A program made the translations under genes and the position numbers. From contig NC_014640.1 in assembly GCF_000165835.1 (NCBI RefSeq), forward strand, positions 4,712,001-4,776,000: a stretch of 64,000 nt of DNA. Reading direction: 5' to 3'. How positions within the stretch are numbered: the stretch's first letter is position 1; the number at the start of each line of letters is the position of its first letter. Below the pieces are notes generated by a model, which saw only the letters and a list, made by a program, of their open reading frames with translations, had not been told where the DNA came from and did not search any database. Shown here in pieces: positions 2,671-36,487 of the stretch. This DNA is from Achromobacter xylosoxidans A8 (GTDB lineage: Bacteria; Pseudomonadota; Gammaproteobacteria; Burkholderiales; Burkholderiaceae_B).

Positions 2671-3858
2671 TCAAGCCTTGGGCAGGCCGAGCATCTGCTC
2701 GGCGATGATATTGCGCTGGATTTCGGAGGTGCCCGCCAGTATGGTTTCGGCGCGCGACCACAGGTAGGCGTGCGTCAGTTCGGCGGCATGCGCGTCGGGC
2801 GCGCCGTCCGCCAGGCATGCGTCCTCGCCCAGCAATTGCAGCGACAGTTCCAGCAAGCGCTGATGTGCTTCGCTCCAATGGATCTTGGTGGACGAGCCCT
2901 CCGGCCCCGGCGGATCCCCGCGCATCGCGCCGGCCAGCGCGCGCTGCGATTTCAGCGCCAGCACGTGACTGTCGGCCGCCAGCCACGCCCACTGCTGGCG
3001 CACCGCCGCCGAAGACGCCGGCACATGGCCATGGGCATCGGCGCGCAAGGCCAGTTCGCGCACCTCGCTCAGTTCCTGCGCGAAGCGCACCAACCGCGGG
3101 ATGAAGTAAGTGCCGCGCTCGAAACTGGCGGCGGCCATGGCTATCTTCCAGCCCTGGTTCGGCTCGCCCAGCAGGCAGTCCCCGGGCACGAACACGTCTT
3201 CGAAGAACACCTCGCAGAATTCGGCCTCGCCCGTGATCTGCCGGATGGGTTCGACCCGTACGCCGGGGCTGCGCATGTCGACCAGCAGGAAGCTCAGGCC
3301 CCTGTGCTTGGCCGCCTGCGGATCGGTACGCGCCAGCACGAAGCACCACTGCGCGCGGTCGGCGAACGAGGTCCAGATCTTGTGGCCGTTCAGCCGATAG
3401 CCGCCGGGCGCGGCCTCCGCCCGTGTGCGCACCGACGCCAGGTCGGAGCCGGCGCCCGGCTCCGAATAGCCCTGGCACCAGACTTCGCGGTTCGACAGAA
3501 TGCCGGGCAGGAAACGGCGCTTCTGCGCCTCGCTGCCGAAATGCAGCAGGGTCGGCGCCAGGATGCCGTGTCCGATCAGGTTCACGCCTAGCGGCGCGCC
3601 GCAGCGCGCGTGCTCTTCGTGGAACACCGCCTGCCGCGACAGCGGCAGGGCGCGGCCCCCGTGTTCCTTGGGCCAGCCCAGCCCGGACCAGCCGTTGGCG
3701 CACAGGGTGTCCTCCCACGCGCGCCTGAAATCCAGGCTGCGCGGATCCGCCCCACCCGGCCAATCCTTGACGAAACGGGCGTAGGCCGATGCCAGCCAGC
3801 CGCGCAGGTCCAGGCGGAACGCCTCATCTTCCCGCGCGGCGCTTTCCAACTGCGTCAT
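2671..3858 (-). CDS. Acyl-CoA dehydrogenase, large-subunit type
   Basis: A 395-residue FAD-dependent acyl-CoA dehydrogenase that desaturates an acyl-CoA thioester at C2-C3. The N-terminal helical domain is followed by the beta-domain signature WCQGYSEPGAGSDLAS, and the C-terminus carries the FAD-contact motif GTSEIQRNIIAEQMLGLP. At the position where medium- and short-chain enzymes have the catalytic Glu (the residue before GTS), this protein has Ala (ILAGTSEIQ), so the base must come from elsewhere or from the partner subunit. It follows the Bug receptor gene by 4 bp and precedes the smaller dehydrogenase by 5 bp. Confidence 0.92.
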   Translation of the reverse strand: MTQLESAAREDEAFRLDLRGWLASAYARFVKDWPGGADPRSLDFRRAWEDTLCANGWSGLGWPKEHGGRALPLSRQAVFHEEHARCGAPLGVNLIGHGILAPTLLHFGSEAQKRRFLPGILSNREVWCQGYSEPGAGSDLASVRTRAEAAPGGYRLNGHKIWTSFADRAQWCFVLARTDPQAAKHRGLSFLLVDMRSPGVRVEPIRQITGEAEFCEVFFEDVFVPGDCLLGEPNQGWKIAMAAASFERGTYFIPRLVRFAQELSEVRELALRADAHGHVPASSAAVRQQWAWLAADSHVLALKSQRALAGAMRGDPPGPEGSSTKIHWSEAHQRLLELSLQLLGEDACLADGAPDAHAAELTHAYLWSRAETILAGTSEIQRNIIAEQMLGLPKA

Positions 3859-14344: not shown

Positions 14345-14365
14345 GTCTTATATAAGATATAAGAC
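14345..14365. promoter_or_regulatory. Perfect 9-3-9 inverted repeat in front of acnB, identical to that before acnA
   Basis: GTCTTATAT-AAG-ATATAAGAC is a perfect 21-bp dyad. The same 21 bp plus two flanking bases on each side recur at 33665-33685 upstream of acnA. It ends 2 bp before a -35-like TTGCTT. It is very likely the operator of a shared regulator of the two aconitases, probably dimeric and possibly GntR-type. The regulator is not identifiable from this window. Confidence 0.8.
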
Positions 14366-14367
14366 AT

Positions 14368-14397
14368 TTGCTTGCGTCCCCCTGTTCCCTCTACAAT
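14368..14397 (+). promoter_or_regulatory. Putative sigma-70 promoter of acnB
   Basis: TTGCTT (14368-14373), an 18-bp spacer and TACAAT (14392-14397) form a plausible sigma-70 promoter 46 bp upstream of the acnB ATG, directly downstream of the shared inverted repeat. Confidence 0.5.
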
Positions 14398-14442: not shown

Positions 14443-17034
14443 ATGCTGGATAATTACCGCCAACACGTTGCCGAACGCGCGGCTCTGGGGATTCCCCCGC
14501 TGCCCCTTACGGCCAAACAAACCGCTGAACTGATCGAACTGCTCAAGAACCCGCCCGCAGGCGAAGAGCAGAACCTGGTCGAGCTGCTGACGCACCGCGT
14601 GCCGGCCGGCGTGGACGACGCCGCCAAGGTCAAGGCTTCGTACCTGGCCGCCGTGGCGCTGGGCAAGGAAGCTTGTGCGCTGATCAGCCGTGCCAAGGCG
14701 ACTGAACTGCTCGGCACGATGCTGGGCGGCTACAACATTGGCCCGCTGGTCGACCTGCTGGACGACGCTGAAATCGGCACCATCGCCGCCGACGCGCTGA
14801 AAAAGACCCTGTTGATGTTCGACGCCTTCCACGACGTGAAGGAAAAGGCGGACAAGGGCAACGCCAATGCCAAATCCGTGATGCAGAGCTGGGCCGACGC
14901 CGAATGGTTCACCAGCCGTCCGGAACTGCCGCAAAGCCTGACCATCACCGTCTTCAAGGTGCCTGGCGAAACCAACACCGACGACCTGTCGCCGGCTCCC
15001 GACGCCACCACCCGCCCCGACATCCCGATGCACGCCCTGGCGATGCTGAAGAACAAGCGCGACGGCGCCGCGTTCGAACCGGAAGAAGACGGCAAGCGCG
15101 GCCCGGTCAAGTTCATCGAAGCCCTGAAGGAAAAGGGCCACCTGGTCGCCTACGTCGGCGACGTGGTCGGCACGGGTTCGTCGCGCAAGTCGGCCACCAA
15201 CTCGGTGCTGTGGTTCACCGGCGAAGACATCCCCTTCGTGCCGAACAAGCGCTTCGGCGGCGTGTGCCTGGGCAACAAGATTGCCCCGATCTTCTACAAC
15301 ACCATGGAAGACGCCGGCGCCCTGCCGATCGAACTCGACGTTTCCAAGATGGAAATGGGCGACGTGGTCGAACTGCGCCCCTATGAAGGCAAGGCCTTGA
15401 AGAACGGCGAAGTCATCGCCGAATTCGAAGTGAAGTCCGACGTGCTGTTCGACGAAGTGCGCGCCGGCGGCCGCATTCCGCTGATCATCGGCCGCGGCCT
15501 GACCGCCAAGGCGCGCGAAGCGCTAGGCCTGCCGGCCTCGACGCTGTTCCGCCTGCCCAAGGATCCGGCCGATACCGGCAAGGGTTACACCCTGGCCCAG
15601 AAGATGGTCGGCCGCGCCTGCGGCATGCCGGAAGGCAAGGGCATCCGCCCGGGCACCTACTGCGAACCGAAGATGACCTCGGTCGGCAGCCAGGACACCA
15701 CCGGCCCCATGACCCGCGACGAGCTGAAGGACCTGGCCTGCCTGGGCTTCTCGGCCGACCTGGTGATGCAGTCGTTCTGCCACACCGCCGCCTACCCCAA
15801 GCCCGTGGACGTCAAGACGCACCACACCCTGCCGGAGTTCATCAGCACCCGCGGCGGCGTCTCGCTGCGCCCGGGCGACGGCGTGATCCACTCGTGGCTC
15901 AACCGCATGCTGTTGCCCGACACCGTCGGCACCGGCGGCGACTCGCACACCCGCTTCCCCATCGGCATCTCGTTCCCGGCCGGCTCGGGTCTGGTCGCCT
16001 TTGCCGCCGCCACCGGCGTGATGCCGCTGGACATGCCGGAATCGGTGCTGGTCCGCTTCAAGGGCAAGCTGCAACCCGGCGTGACCCTGCGCGACCTGGT
16101 CAACGCGATCCCGCTGTACGCCATCAAGCAAGGCCTGCTGACGGTCGCCAAGCAAGGCAAGAAGAACATCTTCTCCGGCCGCATCCTGGAAATCGAAGGC
16201 CTGCCCGACCTGAAGGTCGAACAAGCCTTTGAACTGTCGGACGCTTCCGCCGAACGTTCGGCCGCCGGCTGCTCGGTGTTCCTGAACAAGGAACCGATCA
16301 TCGAGTACATCAACAGCAACATCGTGATGCTGAAGTGGATGATCGCCAACGGCTACGAAGACGAGCGCACGCTGGGCCGCCGCATCAAGGCCATGGAAGC
16401 CTGGCTGGCCGATCCCAAGCTGCTGGAGCCGGACGCCGACGCCGAATACGCCGCCGTGATCGAAATCGACCTGGCCGACGTGCACGAACCCATCGTGGCC
16501 TGCCCGAACGACCCGGACGACGTGAAGACGCTGTCGGAAGTCGCCGGCGCCAAGATCGACGAAGTGTTCATCGGCAGCTGCATGACCAACATCGGCCACT
16601 TCCGCGCAGCCTCCAAGCTGCTGGAAGGCAAGCGCGATATCCCGGTCAAGCTGTGGGTCGCCCCGCCGACCAAGATGGACGCCACGCAACTGACCGAGGA
16701 AGGCCACTACGGCGTGTTCGGCACCGCCGGCGCACGCACGGAAATGCCGGGCTGCTCGCTGTGCATGGGCAACCAGGCGCAGGTGCGCGAAGGCGCGACG
16801 GTCATGTCGACCAGCACCCGCAACTTCCCGAACCGCCTGGGCAAGAACACCAACGTGTACCTGGGTTCGGCCGAACTGGCCGCGATCTGCTCGAAGCTGG
16901 GCCGCATCCCGACCAAGGACGAGTACATGGCCGACATGGGCGTCATCAACAAGAGCGGCGACCAGATCTACCAGTACCTGAACTTCGACAAGATCGCGGA
17001 CTACAAGGACGTGGCTGACGTCATCGAAGTCTAA
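14443..17034 (+). CDS. acnB: Aconitate hydratase B (also 2-methylisocitrate dehydratase activity in the family)
   Basis: An 863-residue AcnB, matching the roughly 865 residues of the E. coli enzyme. It interconverts citrate and isocitrate in the TCA cycle. The AcnB-specific order is seen: an N-terminal HEAT-like domain ([20 protein letters not shown]), then the swivel domain ([20 protein letters not shown]), then the catalytic domains. The 4Fe-4S cysteines are in [15 protein letters not shown] and [10 protein letters not shown]. The ATG at 14443 is chosen because it starts the conserved AcnB N-terminus. Gene flanked by the shared inverted repeat upstream and a strong terminator at 17072. Confidence 0.97.
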
Positions 17035-28076: not shown

Positions 28077-28913
28077 ATGGCGTTCAACAGTCATGACCTA
28101 CAAGCCGCGGGCGCGTCGAGTCCGCCCAAGCGCAGCGACCTGGTCGCCGAGGAGATCAAGCGGCTGATCACGGCCAAGAACCTGTTGCCAGGCGACAAGC
28201 TGCCGCGCGAGAGCGAGTTGCAAAGCATGTTCTCGGTCAGCAAGAGCACCATGCGCGAAGCGCTCAAATCGCTGGAGGTGCAGGGACTGGTGAAGGTCAG
28301 CACCGGACCGGGCGGCGGCGGCACCGTGGTCGAGGTGCCGCTGGACCGCACTTTCCAGCTGATGCAGAACTACCTTTTCTTCAAGGAAGTGCGGATCGAG
28401 GACATCTACCAGGTGCGCAAGCTGCTGGAGCCCGAACTGGCAGCCAGCGCCGTGCCCTTCCTGACAGAGGCGCATTTCGCCGCGCTGGAGGAAAACATCG
28501 CCTGCTGCGATCCGTCCGCAGAACATGTGGACGATCCGCTGGCACAGCGCCAGGAAGAGATCAATTTCCACGACATCTTCGCCGCGGCCTGCCCCAATCC
28601 GTTCCTGCGGTTCAGCTGCGAGATGACCAACGAAATGATCCGGCAACTGACCGTGTTCGACAACGAGATGCCGTTGTCCGAACAGCAGCGCTTCGGCAGC
28701 GCCAACGCGGGTTTCCACCGCAAGATCCTGGCGGCGGCGCGCGAGCGCGACGTCGAACAGGTGCGCGACCTGATGAGCGGGCACATGCAGGACGCGATGC
28801 GCTCGGTCAAGCGCATGCACGGCAAGCTCGAGGGCCGGTTGATCCTGGACTCCGAGATGTCGCGGCGCAACGTCACGCGCAAGGCTCGGCGCGGCGGCAG
28901 CAAGAAGGCCTGA
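28077..28913 (+). CDS. FadR/GntR-family transcriptional regulator
   Basis: A 278-residue regulator with a good Shine-Dalgarno (GGAGG) before the ATG. The winged helix-turn-helix spans about residues 18-90 (PGDKLPRESELQSMFSVSKS, then TMREALKSLEVQGLVKV). The FCD domain follows, with EPELAASAVPFL and a metal-ligand-like segment NFHDIFAAACPNPF. The basic C-terminal tail (NVTRKARRGGSKKA) is unusual for the family. Divergent from the transporter/hydrolase operon, which it very likely controls. Confidence 0.93.
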   Translation: MAFNSHDLQAAGASSPPKRSDLVAEEIKRLITAKNLLPGDKLPRESELQSMFSVSKSTMREALKSLEVQGLVKVSTGPGGGGTVVEVPLDRTFQLMQNYLFFKEVRIEDIYQVRKLLEPELAASAVPFLTEAHFAALEENIACCDPSAEHVDDPLAQRQEEINFHDIFAAACPNPFLRFSCEMTNEMIRQLTVFDNEMPLSEQQRFGSANAGFHRKILAAARERDVEQVRDLMSGHMQDAMRSVKRMHGKLEGRLILDSEMSRRNVTRKARRGGSKKA

Positions 28914-28985: not shown

Positions 28986-29972
28986 TCAGTCCAGCTTGAT
29001 GTGATTGGACTCGATCACCGCGCCCCAGCGCTGGCGGTCTTCCTGCACATAGGCGTCGACGTCGGCCTGGCTGCGCGGCGCCTGGATCACCAGGCCCAGC
29101 GGTTCGAAGCGGCCGCGGAACGCCGGATCCTTCAGTACCTTGTCCAGCGCCGCCTGCAGGCGCTGCGCCTCGGCCTGCGGCACGGCGCGCGGCACGGCCA
29201 GGCCAAACCAGGTGGCGGCGCGGAATCCCGGAAAGCCGCTTTCCGCCACGGTCGGCACCTCCGGCAGCACGGCCAGCCTTTCCGCGGTGGTGACGGCCAG
29301 TGCCTTGATCTTGCGTTCCCGCACCAGCGGCAGCGACGTGCTGACCACGTCCACCATGAGTTGCGTGTCGTTGCCCATCAGTGAGGTCAGCGCGGGCGCG
29401 CTGCCGTTGTACGGGATATGCGCCACGTCCATGCCGGTGCGTGATTTCAGCAGTTCGGTCGCCAACTGCAGCGGATTGCCGATGCCCACGGAGGCGTAGT
29501 TCAGCTTGCCAGGCTGCGCCTTGGCATAGGTGACGAATTCAGCCAACGAGCCGGCCGGCACCTCGTTGTTGGCCACCACCACCAGCGGCAATTCGGCCGC
29601 GATGCCGAGCACGCGGAAGTCGCGGGCGGCGTCATAGGCGATGCGCTGGTAGAGCATGGGATTGAGCACCATGCTGGCGTTGCTGGCGAGAAAAACCGTA
29701 TAGCCGTCAGGTGCGGATCGCGCTACCTGGGTGGCGGCGATCATGGTGTTGGCGCCGGGCTTGTTCTCCACGACCACGGGTTGCCCGAGGTCGCGCGACA
29801 TGCCCTCGGCCAACACCCGCGACAATTGGTCGGCGGATCCTCCTGGCGTGTACGGCACGACCAGTTTGACCGGCTTGTCCGGAAACGCCGCCAACACGGC
29901 GGAAGGGCCCGCGAGCGCGAAGATCGTTGCGGCCGCGATGCGACGCAGCCTGTGGTTCAGTCTGTATGCCAT
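28986..29972 (-). CDS. Tripartite tricarboxylate transporter (Bug-type) periplasmic receptor
   Basis: A 328-residue Bug receptor with a signal peptide (cleavage near VLAAFP) and the motifs FPDKPVKLVVPYTPGGSADQ and GQPVVVENKPGANTM. Downstream of the acyl-CoA ligase gene by 54 bp and on the same strand, so probably part of the 32452-to-28986 operon. As with most Bug proteins no TctA/TctB membrane genes are adjacent. The bound carboxylate is presumably the substrate of the neighbouring ligase. Confidence 0.93.
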   Translation of the reverse strand: MAYRLNHRLRRIAAATIFALAGPSAVLAAFPDKPVKLVVPYTPGGSADQLSRVLAEGMSRDLGQPVVVENKPGANTMIAATQVARSAPDGYTVFLASNASMVLNPMLYQRIAYDAARDFRVLGIAAELPLVVVANNEVPAGSLAEFVTYAKAQPGKLNYASVGIGNPLQLATELLKSRTGMDVAHIPYNGSAPALTSLMGNDTQLMVDVVSTSLPLVRERKIKALAVTTAERLAVLPEVPTVAESGFPGFRAATWFGLAVPRAVPQAEAQRLQAALDKVLKDPAFRGRFEPLGLVIQAPRSQADVDAYVQEDRQRWGAVIESNHIKLD

Positions 29973-30026: not shown

Positions 30027-31529
30027 CTATACCTTGCGCTGCCTGCCCGCCCAGAATTCGGCGCGCAGCCTGCGCTTGGCGATCTTGCCGTTGTCGTCGC
30101 GCGGCAGTTCCGCGCGCAGTTGCAGTTCGCGCGGCACCTTGTAGCGCGCGAGCCGTTGCGTCAGCCATTGCGTCAGCGCCTCGGCCTCGGGCAAGGCCCC
30201 CGCCGCGGGCTGCACCAGCGCCATCAGCCGCTCTCCGTATTCGTCATCGGGCACGCCGAACACGGCGCAATCCGCCACGCCCGGATACTGCATCAACTGA
30301 TGCTCGATCTCGGCGGGATAGATGTTCACGCCGCCCGAGATCACCAGATCCGATTCGCGGTCGCATACGTACAGATAGCCGTCCGCATCCAGATAGCCCA
30401 GGTCGCCCAGGCCGATGAGCCCGTCCTTCTCGACCTCGGCGCGGGCCTGGGGATTGTTGCGATAGGTAAAGTCCGCATAGGCCGGCTGGCGCACGTGGAT
30501 CCGCCCGATTTCGCCCGCCGCGCAAGGCGACCCGTCCTCGGCATAGATCCTGATCTGCGCCCCGCCGACGGGCCGGCCGGCGCTGCCGGGGCGGGCGAGC
30601 GCTTCGTGCGAATCGATGACCGTGACCATCCCGGCCTCGCTGGAGGCATAGGTTTCATGGATGACGGGGCCCAACCATTCGATCATGGCGCGCTTGATTT
30701 CCGGCGCGCAGGGTGCGCCCGTCGAGGCCACGAAGCGCAGCGACGACAAGTCGTATGCGGCGCGCGTGGCGGCATCCAGCTTCAACAGGCGCACGTACAT
30801 GATGGGGACCAGGTAGACCGTATCGATGCGATGCGTCTCGATCAGGCGTAGCACCTCGATGGGGTCGAACCTGTCGGTCAGCACGAAGGTCTCGCAGACC
30901 CGCAAGGCCACCTGTGCGTACACGCTGGGCGCGCTGTGATAAATCGGCGCGGGCAGCAAGGCGCGCGAGCCCGGGCGCAGGCCGTAGGCCGCTTCCACCA
31001 CCGCTTCGACCTGTTGCTGGTGGCGCGCCAGGTGTTCCAGCGGAAATGGCGCGCGCACCACCCCCTTGGGCCGGCCGGTAGTGCCGGAGGTATAGGCCAT
31101 GTGGCCGCGCGGCGCCACGCGCGGACCATCGTAGGGCGGCTGGCTGTCGCGCCAGGCGTCGTAGTCCGCCTGCCCGGGCTGCGCCGCGCCAGGGCCGGCC
31201 AGCAGCACAGGCAGACCGGCCGGCAGCGCATCGCGCAGCGGCTGCCACAGGTCGGCGTGGGCAATCAGCAGCCGGGCGCCGCTGTCTTCAATCAGGAACG
31301 CCACTTCGGCGGCAGTGAAATGCCAGTTGATCGGGCAGTAGTAGCAACCCAGCCGCTTGCAGGCCTGGATGATCTCCAGGTAAGGCAGGCCGTTGCGCAG
31401 CAGCACAGCGATCACGTCGCCTTCCCCCACGCCCATCGCAGCCAGGCCGGCGGCGACCTGCTCGCCGCGCGCCGCCAGCGCGGCGCCTGACAGACGCTCG
31501 CCGCCCGCATGGATGGTGCTGTCCGTCAT
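30027..31529 (-). CDS. AMP-forming acyl-CoA synthetase/ligase
   Basis: A 500-residue ANL-superfamily ligase. The P-loop-like AMP motif HMAYTSGTTGRPKGV is near residue 150. YASSEAGMVT, GDLGYLDADGYLYVCDRESD and SGGVNIYPAEIE follow in the usual order, and the C-terminal catalytic Lys is in RDDNGKIAKRRLR. It makes an acyl-CoA from a carboxylic acid, ATP and CoA through an acyl-AMP. The start at 31527-31529 overlaps the stop of the SDR gene (ATGA). Resembles crotonobetaine/long-chain or aryl ligases; substrate not predictable. Confidence 0.92.
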   Translation of the reverse strand: MTDSTIHAGGERLSGAALAARGEQVAAGLAAMGVGEGDVIAVLLRNGLPYLEIIQACKRLGCYYCPINWHFTAAEVAFLIEDSGARLLIAHADLWQPLRDALPAGLPVLLAGPGAAQPGQADYDAWRDSQPPYDGPRVAPRGHMAYTSGTTGRPKGVVRAPFPLEHLARHQQQVEAVVEAAYGLRPGSRALLPAPIYHSAPSVYAQVALRVCETFVLTDRFDPIEVLRLIETHRIDTVYLVPIMYVRLLKLDAATRAAYDLSSLRFVASTGAPCAPEIKRAMIEWLGPVIHETYASSEAGMVTVIDSHEALARPGSAGRPVGGAQIRIYAEDGSPCAAGEIGRIHVRQPAYADFTYRNNPQARAEVEKDGLIGLGDLGYLDADGYLYVCDRESDLVISGGVNIYPAEIEHQLMQYPGVADCAVFGVPDDEYGERLMALVQPAAGALPEAEALTQWLTQRLARYKVPRELQLRAELPRDDNGKIAKRRLRAEFWAGRQRKV

Positions 31530-32452
31530 GAGGCCTCCGTGCTGCGCTGCGCCTTGTCCTGCGCGGTGCGCGCTTCGATCGCCTGACGCGCGGCAGCCCA
31601 GTCGGCGTCGCTCCATTCGGCGTACTGCTTGAAATAGGCGCCGTTGGCCAGATAGTCGCCGCCATCCAGCGCGATGGTCTGGCCGTTGATCCAGTCGTAG
31701 CCCGGACTCAGCAGGAAAGCGGCGAGTTCGCCTATGTCGTGTCCGGTGCCGAGACGCCGCATCGGGTTCTGCTGCGTCTGGGTGTCAGCGCCCTGGTCCT
31801 TGGGCCGCAGGCGCGCGCTGGCGCCTTCGGTCGGAATCACGCCCGGCGCGATGGCGTTGAGGCGAATGCCGTGGCGGCCCCATTCGATGGCCAGCGACTT
31901 GGTCATGGCGTCTATGCCGGCCTTGGACATGGCCGAGGGAACCACGAAGGGCGAACCGGTCCAGACCCAGGTCACCACGATAGACAGCACGGCCCCGCCC
32001 GTGCCTTGCGCAATCCAGCGCTTGCCCACGGCCTGGGTGGTGTAGAAAGTGCCGCGGAACACCGTGTCGGCGATGGCGTTGAAGCCGCGCGGCGAGAGCT
32101 TCTCGGTGGGGCTGATGAAGTTCCCCGCGGCGTTGTTGACCAGGCCGGTCAGCGCGCCATGCCCGGTCCAGATGGCTTCGACGGCGGCGTCCACCGCCTC
32201 GGCATCGCGGATATCCACCGCCTGGACGTGGACCTCCGCGCCGTACCGTTCGCGCAGGCCCGCGGCGGCTTCTTCCAGCACGGCGGCGCGGCGCCCCCAA
32301 AGGTGCAGCGACGCGCCCAGCGCCGCCAGCCGCTCGGCCATGGCGTAGCCCAGGCCGGTGCCGCCGCCGGTGACGAGGATGCGCTGGCCACGGAACAGGT
32401 CGGCGCGGAACATGGTTTGCGGGGCGGTCCCGCCGGGCTGGTTTTGAGGCAT
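31526..32452 (-). CDS. SDR-family oxidoreductase, 2,4-dienoyl-CoA reductase-like
   Basis: A 308-residue short-chain dehydrogenase. The cofactor loop is ILVTGGGTGLGYAMAERLAA near residues 20-40, and NNAAGNF follows. The usual Tyr of the YxxxK site is absent: the segment reads VPSAMSKAGIDAMTKSLAIE, very close to mitochondrial-type 2,4-dienoyl-CoA reductases, where the Ser-Ala-x-x-Lys pattern is normal. NADPH-dependent reduction of an unsaturated acyl-CoA is therefore the best guess. First gene of the SDR-ligase-Bug operon, divergent from a LysR regulator. Confidence 0.88.
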   Translation of the reverse strand: MPQNQPGGTAPQTMFRADLFRGQRILVTGGGTGLGYAMAERLAALGASLHLWGRRAAVLEEAAAGLRERYGAEVHVQAVDIRDAEAVDAAVEAIWTGHGALTGLVNNAAGNFISPTEKLSPRGFNAIADTVFRGTFYTTQAVGKRWIAQGTGGAVLSIVVTWVWTGSPFVVPSAMSKAGIDAMTKSLAIEWGRHGIRLNAIAPGVIPTEGASARLRPKDQGADTQTQQNPMRRLGTGHDIGELAAFLLSPGYDWINGQTIALDGGDYLANGAYFKQYAEWSDADWAAARQAIEARTAQDKAQRSTEAS

Positions 32453-32515
32453 GGCCTGGTCTCCTGTTTGGTGGAGGCCAGAATATCAACCAGCGCCACG
32501 CCGCGACAATCCCGC

Positions 32516-32529
32516 AGTTTGCGTAAACT
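32516..32529. promoter_or_regulatory. 5-4-5 dyad in the SDR/LysR divergent gap, possible LysR-type binding site
   Basis: AGTTT-GCGT-AAACT is a perfect interrupted dyad 64 bp upstream of the SDR start and 32 bp upstream of the LysR start. LysR regulators usually bind such interrupted dyads at divergent promoters. Confidence 0.4.
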
Positions 32530-32561
32530 ATGTTTCCTCACAGTCAACAATAAGACCGCGC

Positions 32562-33491
32562 ATGCCCGCCCTGCCCGCGTTGGATCTCAATCTGATACAG
32601 CTGTTCGTCACCATCGTCGACGCGGGCACGCTGAGCGAAGCGGCGGTGCGCCACGGCGTGACCCGTTCGCACGTCAGCCGCAACCTGCAGAAGCTGGAAC
32701 GGGCTTTCGGCGCCCAGCTCATCCGGCGCAGCACCCGCAGGCTGGAACTGACGCAGCAAGGCTCGGTGCTGTATGAACACGGCGCGCGCATGGCGCGCGA
32801 GGTCGAATCCGCCCGCCACGCCCTGCAGAAGCTGGGCTCGGAACCGGCGGGCCATGTCCGGCTCAGCATTCCCACCGGGCTGGGCGAGCTGGACCAATTG
32901 CGCCCGCTGCTGGTGAGTTTCGCCCTGCGCCATCCCTCGCTGACCCTGCGCGTGCTGTTTTCCAACCGGGTGAGCGACCTGATTTCCTCGGAAATCGATG
33001 TGGCGTTGCGGGTGATGACCACCCCGCCCCAGGATTACGTGGCGCGCGCGCTCGGCGACGTCAAATGGGTGCTGTGCGCGGCGCCCTCTTATCTGGAACA
33101 ATTCGGCGCGCCGGCCCATCCGCGCGACCTTGCGCGCCTGCACTTCCTCGGTCCGCCCGATCCCAGGCCCCTGGTCACGCTGCGCCTGCGCCGCAAGGAC
33201 CAGCTGCACGAGGCCAAGCTCGCGCCGCGGCTGCAATCGGAGTATTTCCCGTTCCTGGCCCAGGCCGCGCGCGCCGGCGCGGGCGTGGCGCTGCTGCCCG
33301 CCTATGTGGTGTACGCGGACATCGCGGCGGGCCGCCTGACGCCCGTGCTCCCCGCCTACCAAGCCATGGGGCCGGGCGACAAGCTGTTCATCCTGACCAC
33401 GCCCAATCCCTACCCCTCGACCGCGCAGCGCGCGGTGGTCGATTTCCTGCGCACGGAGCTGACCGCGCTGCTGCGCCATTTCCTGGCATAG
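32562..33491 (+). CDS. LysR-family transcriptional regulator
   Basis: A 309-residue LysR protein. The HTH is at residues 7-66 (LDLNLIQLFVTIVDAGTLSE, then AAVRHGVTRSHVSRNLQKLE), followed by an effector domain beginning GHVRLSIPTGLGELDQLRPL. The ATG at 32562 is chosen because the HTH starts just after it. The gene is divergent from and probably regulates the SDR-acyl-CoA ligase-Bug operon. Confidence 0.92.
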   Translation: MPALPALDLNLIQLFVTIVDAGTLSEAAVRHGVTRSHVSRNLQKLERAFGAQLIRRSTRRLELTQQGSVLYEHGARMAREVESARHALQKLGSEPAGHVRLSIPTGLGELDQLRPLLVSFALRHPSLTLRVLFSNRVSDLISSEIDVALRVMTTPPQDYVARALGDVKWVLCAAPSYLEQFGAPAHPRDLARLHFLGPPDPRPLVTLRLRRKDQLHEAKLAPRLQSEYFPFLAQAARAGAGVALLPAYVVYADIAAGRLTPVLPAYQAMGPGDKLFILTTPNPYPSTAQRAVVDFLRTELTALLRHFLA

Positions 33492-33648: not shown

Positions 33649-33685
33649 TTGACGGTCCGGCTAAGTCTTATATAAGATATAAGAC
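33649..33685. promoter_or_regulatory. acnA control region: perfect 9-3-9 inverted repeat (33665-33685) overlapping a promoter-like sequence
   Basis: The 21-bp dyad GTCTTATAT-AAG-ATATAAGAC at 33665-33685 is identical to that before acnB. A TTGACG (33649-33654), a 16-bp spacer and TATAAG (33671-33676) suggest a promoter whose -10 lies inside the dyad, which would fit repression. A second -10-like TAGAAT at 33714 sits 28 bp past the dyad, nearly the same spacing as the acnB -10 (26 bp), so promoter choice is open. The rest of the 290-bp gap shows nothing clear. Confidence 0.75.
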
Positions 33686-33781
33686 ATGCAGCCGCGCAGG
33701 CGTCAGTCTCACATAGAATGACAAATGCCCAAAAACGCCAGAAAATGCCGGCTTCAACCGGGCAAAACCACGGAGTCCATC

Positions 33782-36487
<2,706 letters not shown>

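Follow-up and report, generated by a model that had tools for sequence, protein, structure and literature searches.

The closest described system is SdhR, listed under the HutC subfamily of GntR-family regulators with an operator motif printed as a palindrome with additional symmetry, TCTTATGTCTTATATAAGACATAAGA (Suvorova, Korostelev and Gelfand 2015, PMC4494728), a motif that the paper credits to Suvorova et al. 2012 (PMC3370838, its reference 56). The 2015 paper also describes extra half-sites, 7-12 nt from the palindromes of GntR-family regulators, as weaker boxes. SdhR is named once in the main text of PMC4494728, in which the terms aconit, acnA, acnB, citrate, succinate and malate do not occur, no host of SdhR is given, and Bordetella and Burkholderia are absent. 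The main texts of PMC5343134 and PMC7064253, to the extent accessible, do not name SdhR, and no experimental work on SdhR was found in the accessible portion of the open-licence literature searched; the matches listed for the word SdhR have clinical or otherwise unrelated titles. As a text string the motif fragment CTTATATAAG occurs in 22 papers, and four of five longer pieces of the motif occur in PMC4494728, with one each in papers whose titles concern Staphylococcus aureus and Plasmodium berghei.

Two HutC-subfamily members with solved structures, DasR and YvoA, have the same GntR plus UTRA architecture as the candidate SdhR considered here, to which PDB entries 4zs8 and 2wv0 align over residues 41-270 and 43-270 of 275. 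They differ from SdhR in being amino-sugar regulators with another DNA motif.

The window analysed here is a 64-kb stretch of DNA (G000:C1:4712001-4776000 of a 7,359,146-bp assembly). A first-pass annotation had reported an identical 21-bp repeat in front of both aconitase genes, acnB and acnA, and a window search bears this out: GTCTTATATAAGATATAAGAC occurs exactly twice, at 14345-14365 and 33665-33685, on the + strand with 0 mismatches in both cases, and two further bases on each side (AA...AT) extend the identity to 25 bp (Table 1). Because 100 dinucleotide shuffles of the window contain no match at three or fewer mismatches, the pair is not expected by chance; nor does composition explain an AT-rich 25-mer, the GC content of the window being 67%. 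Outside the 25 bp the acnB and acnA flanks agree at only 17 of 58 bases on either side, and the identity is therefore confined to the site. The 9-bp arms, also claimed to be perfect, form a perfect 9-3-9 dyad at both sites; one other such dyad, GC-rich, lies in the window at 3444. The gene assignments are well above the respective cut-offs (AcnB, TIGR00117, 1523.5 bits, cut-off 1287.2; AcnA, TIGR01341, 1298.6 bits, cut-off 945).

Table 1. Features at the two aconitase promoters, in window coordinates
Feature	Position	Strand	Basis
acnB operator (predicted)	14346..14364	+	exact match; core and third half-site in relatives
acnB half-sites	TCTTAT 14346-14351, ATAAGA 14352-14357, spacer T 14358, ATAAGA 14359-14364	+	
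acnB -35 box TTGCTT (predicted)	14368..14373	+	3 bp after array; sequence
acnB -10 box TACAAT (predicted)	14392..14397	+	18-bp spacer; sequence
acnB, bifunctional aconitate hydratase 2/2-methylisocitrate dehydratase	14443..17034	+	TIGR00117
acnA operator (predicted)	33666..33684	+	exact match; relatives
acnA half-sites	33666-33671, 33672-33677, 33679-33684	+	
acnA -10 box TAGAAT (predicted), without a good -35 box	33714..33719	+	sequence; inference
acnA, aconitate hydratase AcnA	33782..36487	+	TIGR01341

The printed SdhR motif TCTTATGTCTTATATAAGACATAAGA contains a 12-bp core, TCTTATATAAGA, together with half-sites, and both window sites match its core and its right outer half-site. At acnB and acnA alike the central palindrome TCTTAT/ATAAGA and the right outer half-site are perfect, while the 26-bp palindrome lacks its left outer half-site in both (3 mismatches at acnB, 4 at acnA). 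As far as the accessible text of PMC4494728 allows comparison, the window sites share with SdhR the half-site, the 1-bp spacing of repeated half-sites, the central TCTTAT/ATAAGA and a HutC-type regulator, and differ in carrying three of the four half-sites of the published motif. Judging from acnB sites of relatives, we take outer half-sites on both sides to be part of the SdhR consensus and not to be required. The third half-site beside the acnB palindrome resembles the extra half-sites of GntR-family regulators, but, unlike the weaker boxes in the accessible text of that paper, it is often perfect (right side, 18 of 27 sites). Identity with the published SdhR, which we regard as very probable, rests on motif, subfamily and name, the main text of PMC4494728 giving no SdhR targets.

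Across the 7.36-Mb genome the perfect core occurs in three places, namely acnB, acnA and C1:1724948, the last within a divergent promoter region with mdh, prpB, prpC and prpD on one side and gntR, sdhC, sdhD, sdhA, sdhB and gltA on the other (sdhC, sdhD and sdhB identified by Pfam, sdhA by NCBIfam). Three more copies carry one mismatch. One precedes aceA, encoding isocitrate lyase; another, at G000:C1:946042-946053 (L014 2543-2554), lies approximately 40 bp ahead of a gene for enoyl-CoA hydratase, with a class I fumarase gene next in line, and is possibly a genus-specific SdhR target, its core being present in 2 of 26 loci examined (30 fetched), this one and that of a single congener, against 2 of 1300 shuffles. 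The remaining copy, at 6925102, was set aside as a regulon member, having no evident link to TCA genes. At two or fewer mismatches the genome yields 34 matches against 30 for a reversed control, so weak sites are not callable by a looser genome scan. The occurrence of the dyad at many unrelated loci, which the first-pass annotation had named as the refuting result, was not found by the scan, and its proposal that a single regulator serves the two aconitases, and perhaps further TCA genes, gains support from this genome-wide distribution, from retention of the motif at acnB, sdhR/mdh, aceA and some acnA genes in relatives, and from co-occurrence of the motif with one HutC-type GntR gene.

That gene, gntR, our candidate sdhR, lies at G000:C1:1725100-1725924, outside the window as the annotation had said. 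It is the first gene before sdhCDAB-gltA, with sdhC starting approximately 120 bp after it (L012 8050), it is divergent from mdh-prpBCD, and it has an SdhR-type site beside it (G000:C1:1724941-1724966); the name SdhR presumably refers to the sdhCDAB linkage. Its product combines a GntR winged helix (PF00392, 2.3e-19) with a UTRA domain (PF07702, 3.5e-35), domains that place it in the HutC subfamily of GntR. HutC proper, the histidine-utilization repressor, was rejected as an assignment on a TIGR02018 score of 113 bits, below the cut-off of 220. The closest solved structure, PDB 3cnv (1.7e-84, over residues 2-162 of the 162 given), shows the effector domain of a putative GntR regulator that we take to come from Bordetella bronchiseptica. 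The genome also holds a second HutC-type paralogue (G000:C1:498887-499579, 41% identity to SdhR); a TCATATATATGA palindrome at 498774-498785, approximately 100 bp upstream of it, is perhaps this paralogue's own operator.

Within the family the sites recur at the same genes. The core is found in all 30 sdhR loci examined (perfect in 28, with a single mismatch in 2; 112 genomes have the gene) and, at one mismatch or fewer within 350 bp of acnB, in 105 of 113 genomes, perfectly in 100, against 2 matches in 2260 mononucleotide shuffles of the acnB upstream regions. Two of the eight genomes whose acnB has no core within 350 bp (G022, G056) are also without the regulator, which is present in the other six (G031, G077, G084, G098, G105, G118). 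At aceA, 18 of 23 loci have the core within 400 bp, the shuffles giving 4 of 1150; in one of the five loci without it (G024) the gene match is partial. For acnA, 27 loci were fetched, of which 17 close orthologues (at least 76% identity) were counted and 10 (46-57%) left out. Seven of the 17 have a site of their own, and in each of these cases acnB is on a different contig or lies at least approximately 3.5 kb away. The other ten have none; seven of these follow acnB on the same strand at a distance of 139-420 bp and could be served by the acnB site, and three are away from it (G021, 1.5 kb; G030, 3 kb; G031, other contig). The acnA site thus seems to have been gained or lost with gene order.

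Regulator and motif also occur together. Among 121 genomes of the family, the 19-bp pattern (two or fewer mismatches) was found in 113 and a regulator homologue (E 1e-40) in 112: both in 111, regulator only in 1, motif only in 2 and neither in 7 (Fisher p 4e-9), or 111, 1, 1 and 2 without the six genomes below 1 Mb (p 0.001), p values that are indicative only, the genomes being related. G026 is the sole genome with the regulator and no motif; the motif-only genomes are G047 (0.8 Mb, where the reversed control also matches) and G093 (160 contigs, no regulator found). One genus, g22, contains three genomes with both and two with neither (G022 and G056). In a set of 250 genomes of the order, with the pattern at one mismatch and the regulator at E 1e-60, 79 have both, 27 the regulator only, 32 the motif only and 112 neither, so that 27 of the 106 genomes with the regulator have no 19-bp pattern at one mismatch. 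Fourteen of the 32 motif-only genomes were fetched, picked from listed coordinates. In all 14, mdh stands on one side of the site and a diverged gntR homologue (32-38% identity) on the other, with sdhC, sdhA, sdhB and gltA after the homologue (sdhD was outside the query); the E cut-off, not gene absence, therefore explains these 14 mismatches.

The anatomy of the dyad calls for revision. The perfect arms stand, but the 9-3-9 arrangement is one way to parse a site that three 6-bp half-sites, TCTTAT-ATAAGA-T-ATAAGA, describe better. As the only reading the dyad was rejected, since its arms are perfect in 65 of 105 acnB sites and it is broken at sdhR/mdh, where the array is centred on TCTTAT/ATAAGA and the right spacer base is C in all 26 sites that have a right half-site (30 loci). 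Allowing one mismatch or fewer per half-site, the third half-site at acnB is on the right in 66, on the left in 17, on both sides in 19 and on neither in 3 (n=105), and the three-half-site reading covers 102 of the 105. The spacer is T in 66 of the 68 acnB sites that combine a right half-site with TTG at 3 bp, a preference that would also fit the 9-3-9 dyad. Left and right forms are reverse complements, or mirror images, of each other.

The array keeps its position relative to the promoter in both mirror forms; all promoters discussed (acnB, acnA, mdh, sdhR) are predictions from sequence. In 81 of 105 acnB promoters the array ends exactly 3 bp before TTG of the predicted -35 box, which places its downstream end at -39/-40 from the predicted start in either mirror form, and in all 81 the best -10 hexamer stands at 17 or 18 bp (TACAAT 73, TAAAAT 6, TATAAT 2), the choice of the best hexamer in a range favouring a match. 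The core centre is at approximately -53 in 45 of 51 right forms (six are further upstream) and approximately -46 in 13 of 13 left forms. The mdh/sdhR array in the genome of the window has four half-sites, the outer left with one mismatch, and is flanked by TTGACG-17-TAGGAT towards mdh (4 bp away) and TTGGAC towards sdhR (2 bp). This fixed, mirror-tolerant spacing to -35 is the part for which we found no description in the accessible text of PMC4494728.

We computed motif, gene linkage, conservation, co-occurrence and promoter spacing, and infer binding, co-regulation and ligand control. The sequences before acnB and acnA are very probably SdhR operators, through which SdhR would jointly set transcription of TCA-cycle genes. 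The half-site ATAAGA would be bound in arrays, SdhR finding three copies at each aconitase gene and four, one of them imperfect, at the divergent promoter of its own gene. With the outermost half-site directly upstream of the -35 box, it would either touch RNA polymerase or govern the polymerase's access to the promoter, and so set acnA, acnB, mdh, sdhR-sdhCDAB-gltA and aceA together; prpBCD would join them if read through from mdh. The protein would respond to a small molecule in its UTRA domain, and we lean towards repression that is relieved by a metabolite.

Two other regulator genes lie in the window. An FCD-type GntR gene (28077-28913) adjoins a TctC-type tricarboxylate-transporter receptor gene (28986-29972), with an AMP-binding enzyme gene beside the pair (30027-31616); together these resemble a self-contained catabolic unit under a regulator of its own. 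A LysR-type regulator gene (32451-33491) immediately precedes acnA, in the same orientation.

That one of these, or some other transcription factor, owns the sites is very improbable. Both genes are close to acnA, and LysR regulators commonly act on adjacent genes, but the third perfect core lies beside sdhR and beside neither of them, the core precedes sdhR in all 30 loci examined, and SdhR co-occurs with the motif across the family. That the dyad works as an RNA element or terminator is scarcely credible. Inverted repeat though it is, it precedes the predicted -35 and -10 boxes and would hence lie outside the acnB transcript, its stem is AT-rich, and the mirror forms keep the position and not the 9-bp arms. 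We give equally little credence to recent duplication, in place of selection by a protein, as the source of two copies identical over 25 bp within one genome, since no similarity extends beyond the site and the conservation at acnB among relatives already contradicts it.

Within the SdhR reading the sign of control is less settled, with repression somewhat favoured over activation. We lean to a repressor because most members of the HutC subfamily described so far repress their targets, and because the array directly adjoins the -35 box. An activator, whose half-site by -35 would let a subunit touch RNA polymerase, is a serious though less probable variant: the right edge of the array at -39/-40 in either mirror form and the weak -35 at acnA speak for it, but the -10 boxes depart little from consensus (79 of 81 have a single mismatch and 2 have none, taking the best hexamer in a range), and the core centre shifts by 7 bp between forms, which an activator fixed to the core would presumably tolerate poorly. 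More doubtfully, SdhR operators may form a lattice of three half-sites and fixed length, its downstream end locked 3 bp from -35. Were this so, the 19-bp footprint would work in either mirror orientation, so the promoter would sense the end subunit, beside RNA polymerase, and not the centre of the palindrome, and SdhR would directly control TCA, glyoxylate and methylcitrate flux throughout the order, acting at -35 by contact with RNA polymerase or its exclusion.

The first-pass annotation had the sequence right and, so far as computation goes, the biology as well. The regulon is essentially of a known kind, the SdhR motif having already been predicted by comparative genomics (PMC4494728, as accessible), and what was an unnamed dyad becomes a defined, testable predicted regulon. 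The structure 3cnv, as the effector domain of a close homologue, makes the SdhR ligand an accessible question. Both aconitases, malate and succinate dehydrogenase, citrate synthase and isocitrate lyase, and perhaps also the methylcitrate genes, appear to answer to a single protein that carries a small-molecule-binding domain; TIGR00117 describes AcnB itself as a bifunctional enzyme that includes 2-methylisocitrate dehydratase. The predicted targets would span the TCA, glyoxylate and methylcitrate cycles, and the regulator-operator module recurs in many of the order's genomes.
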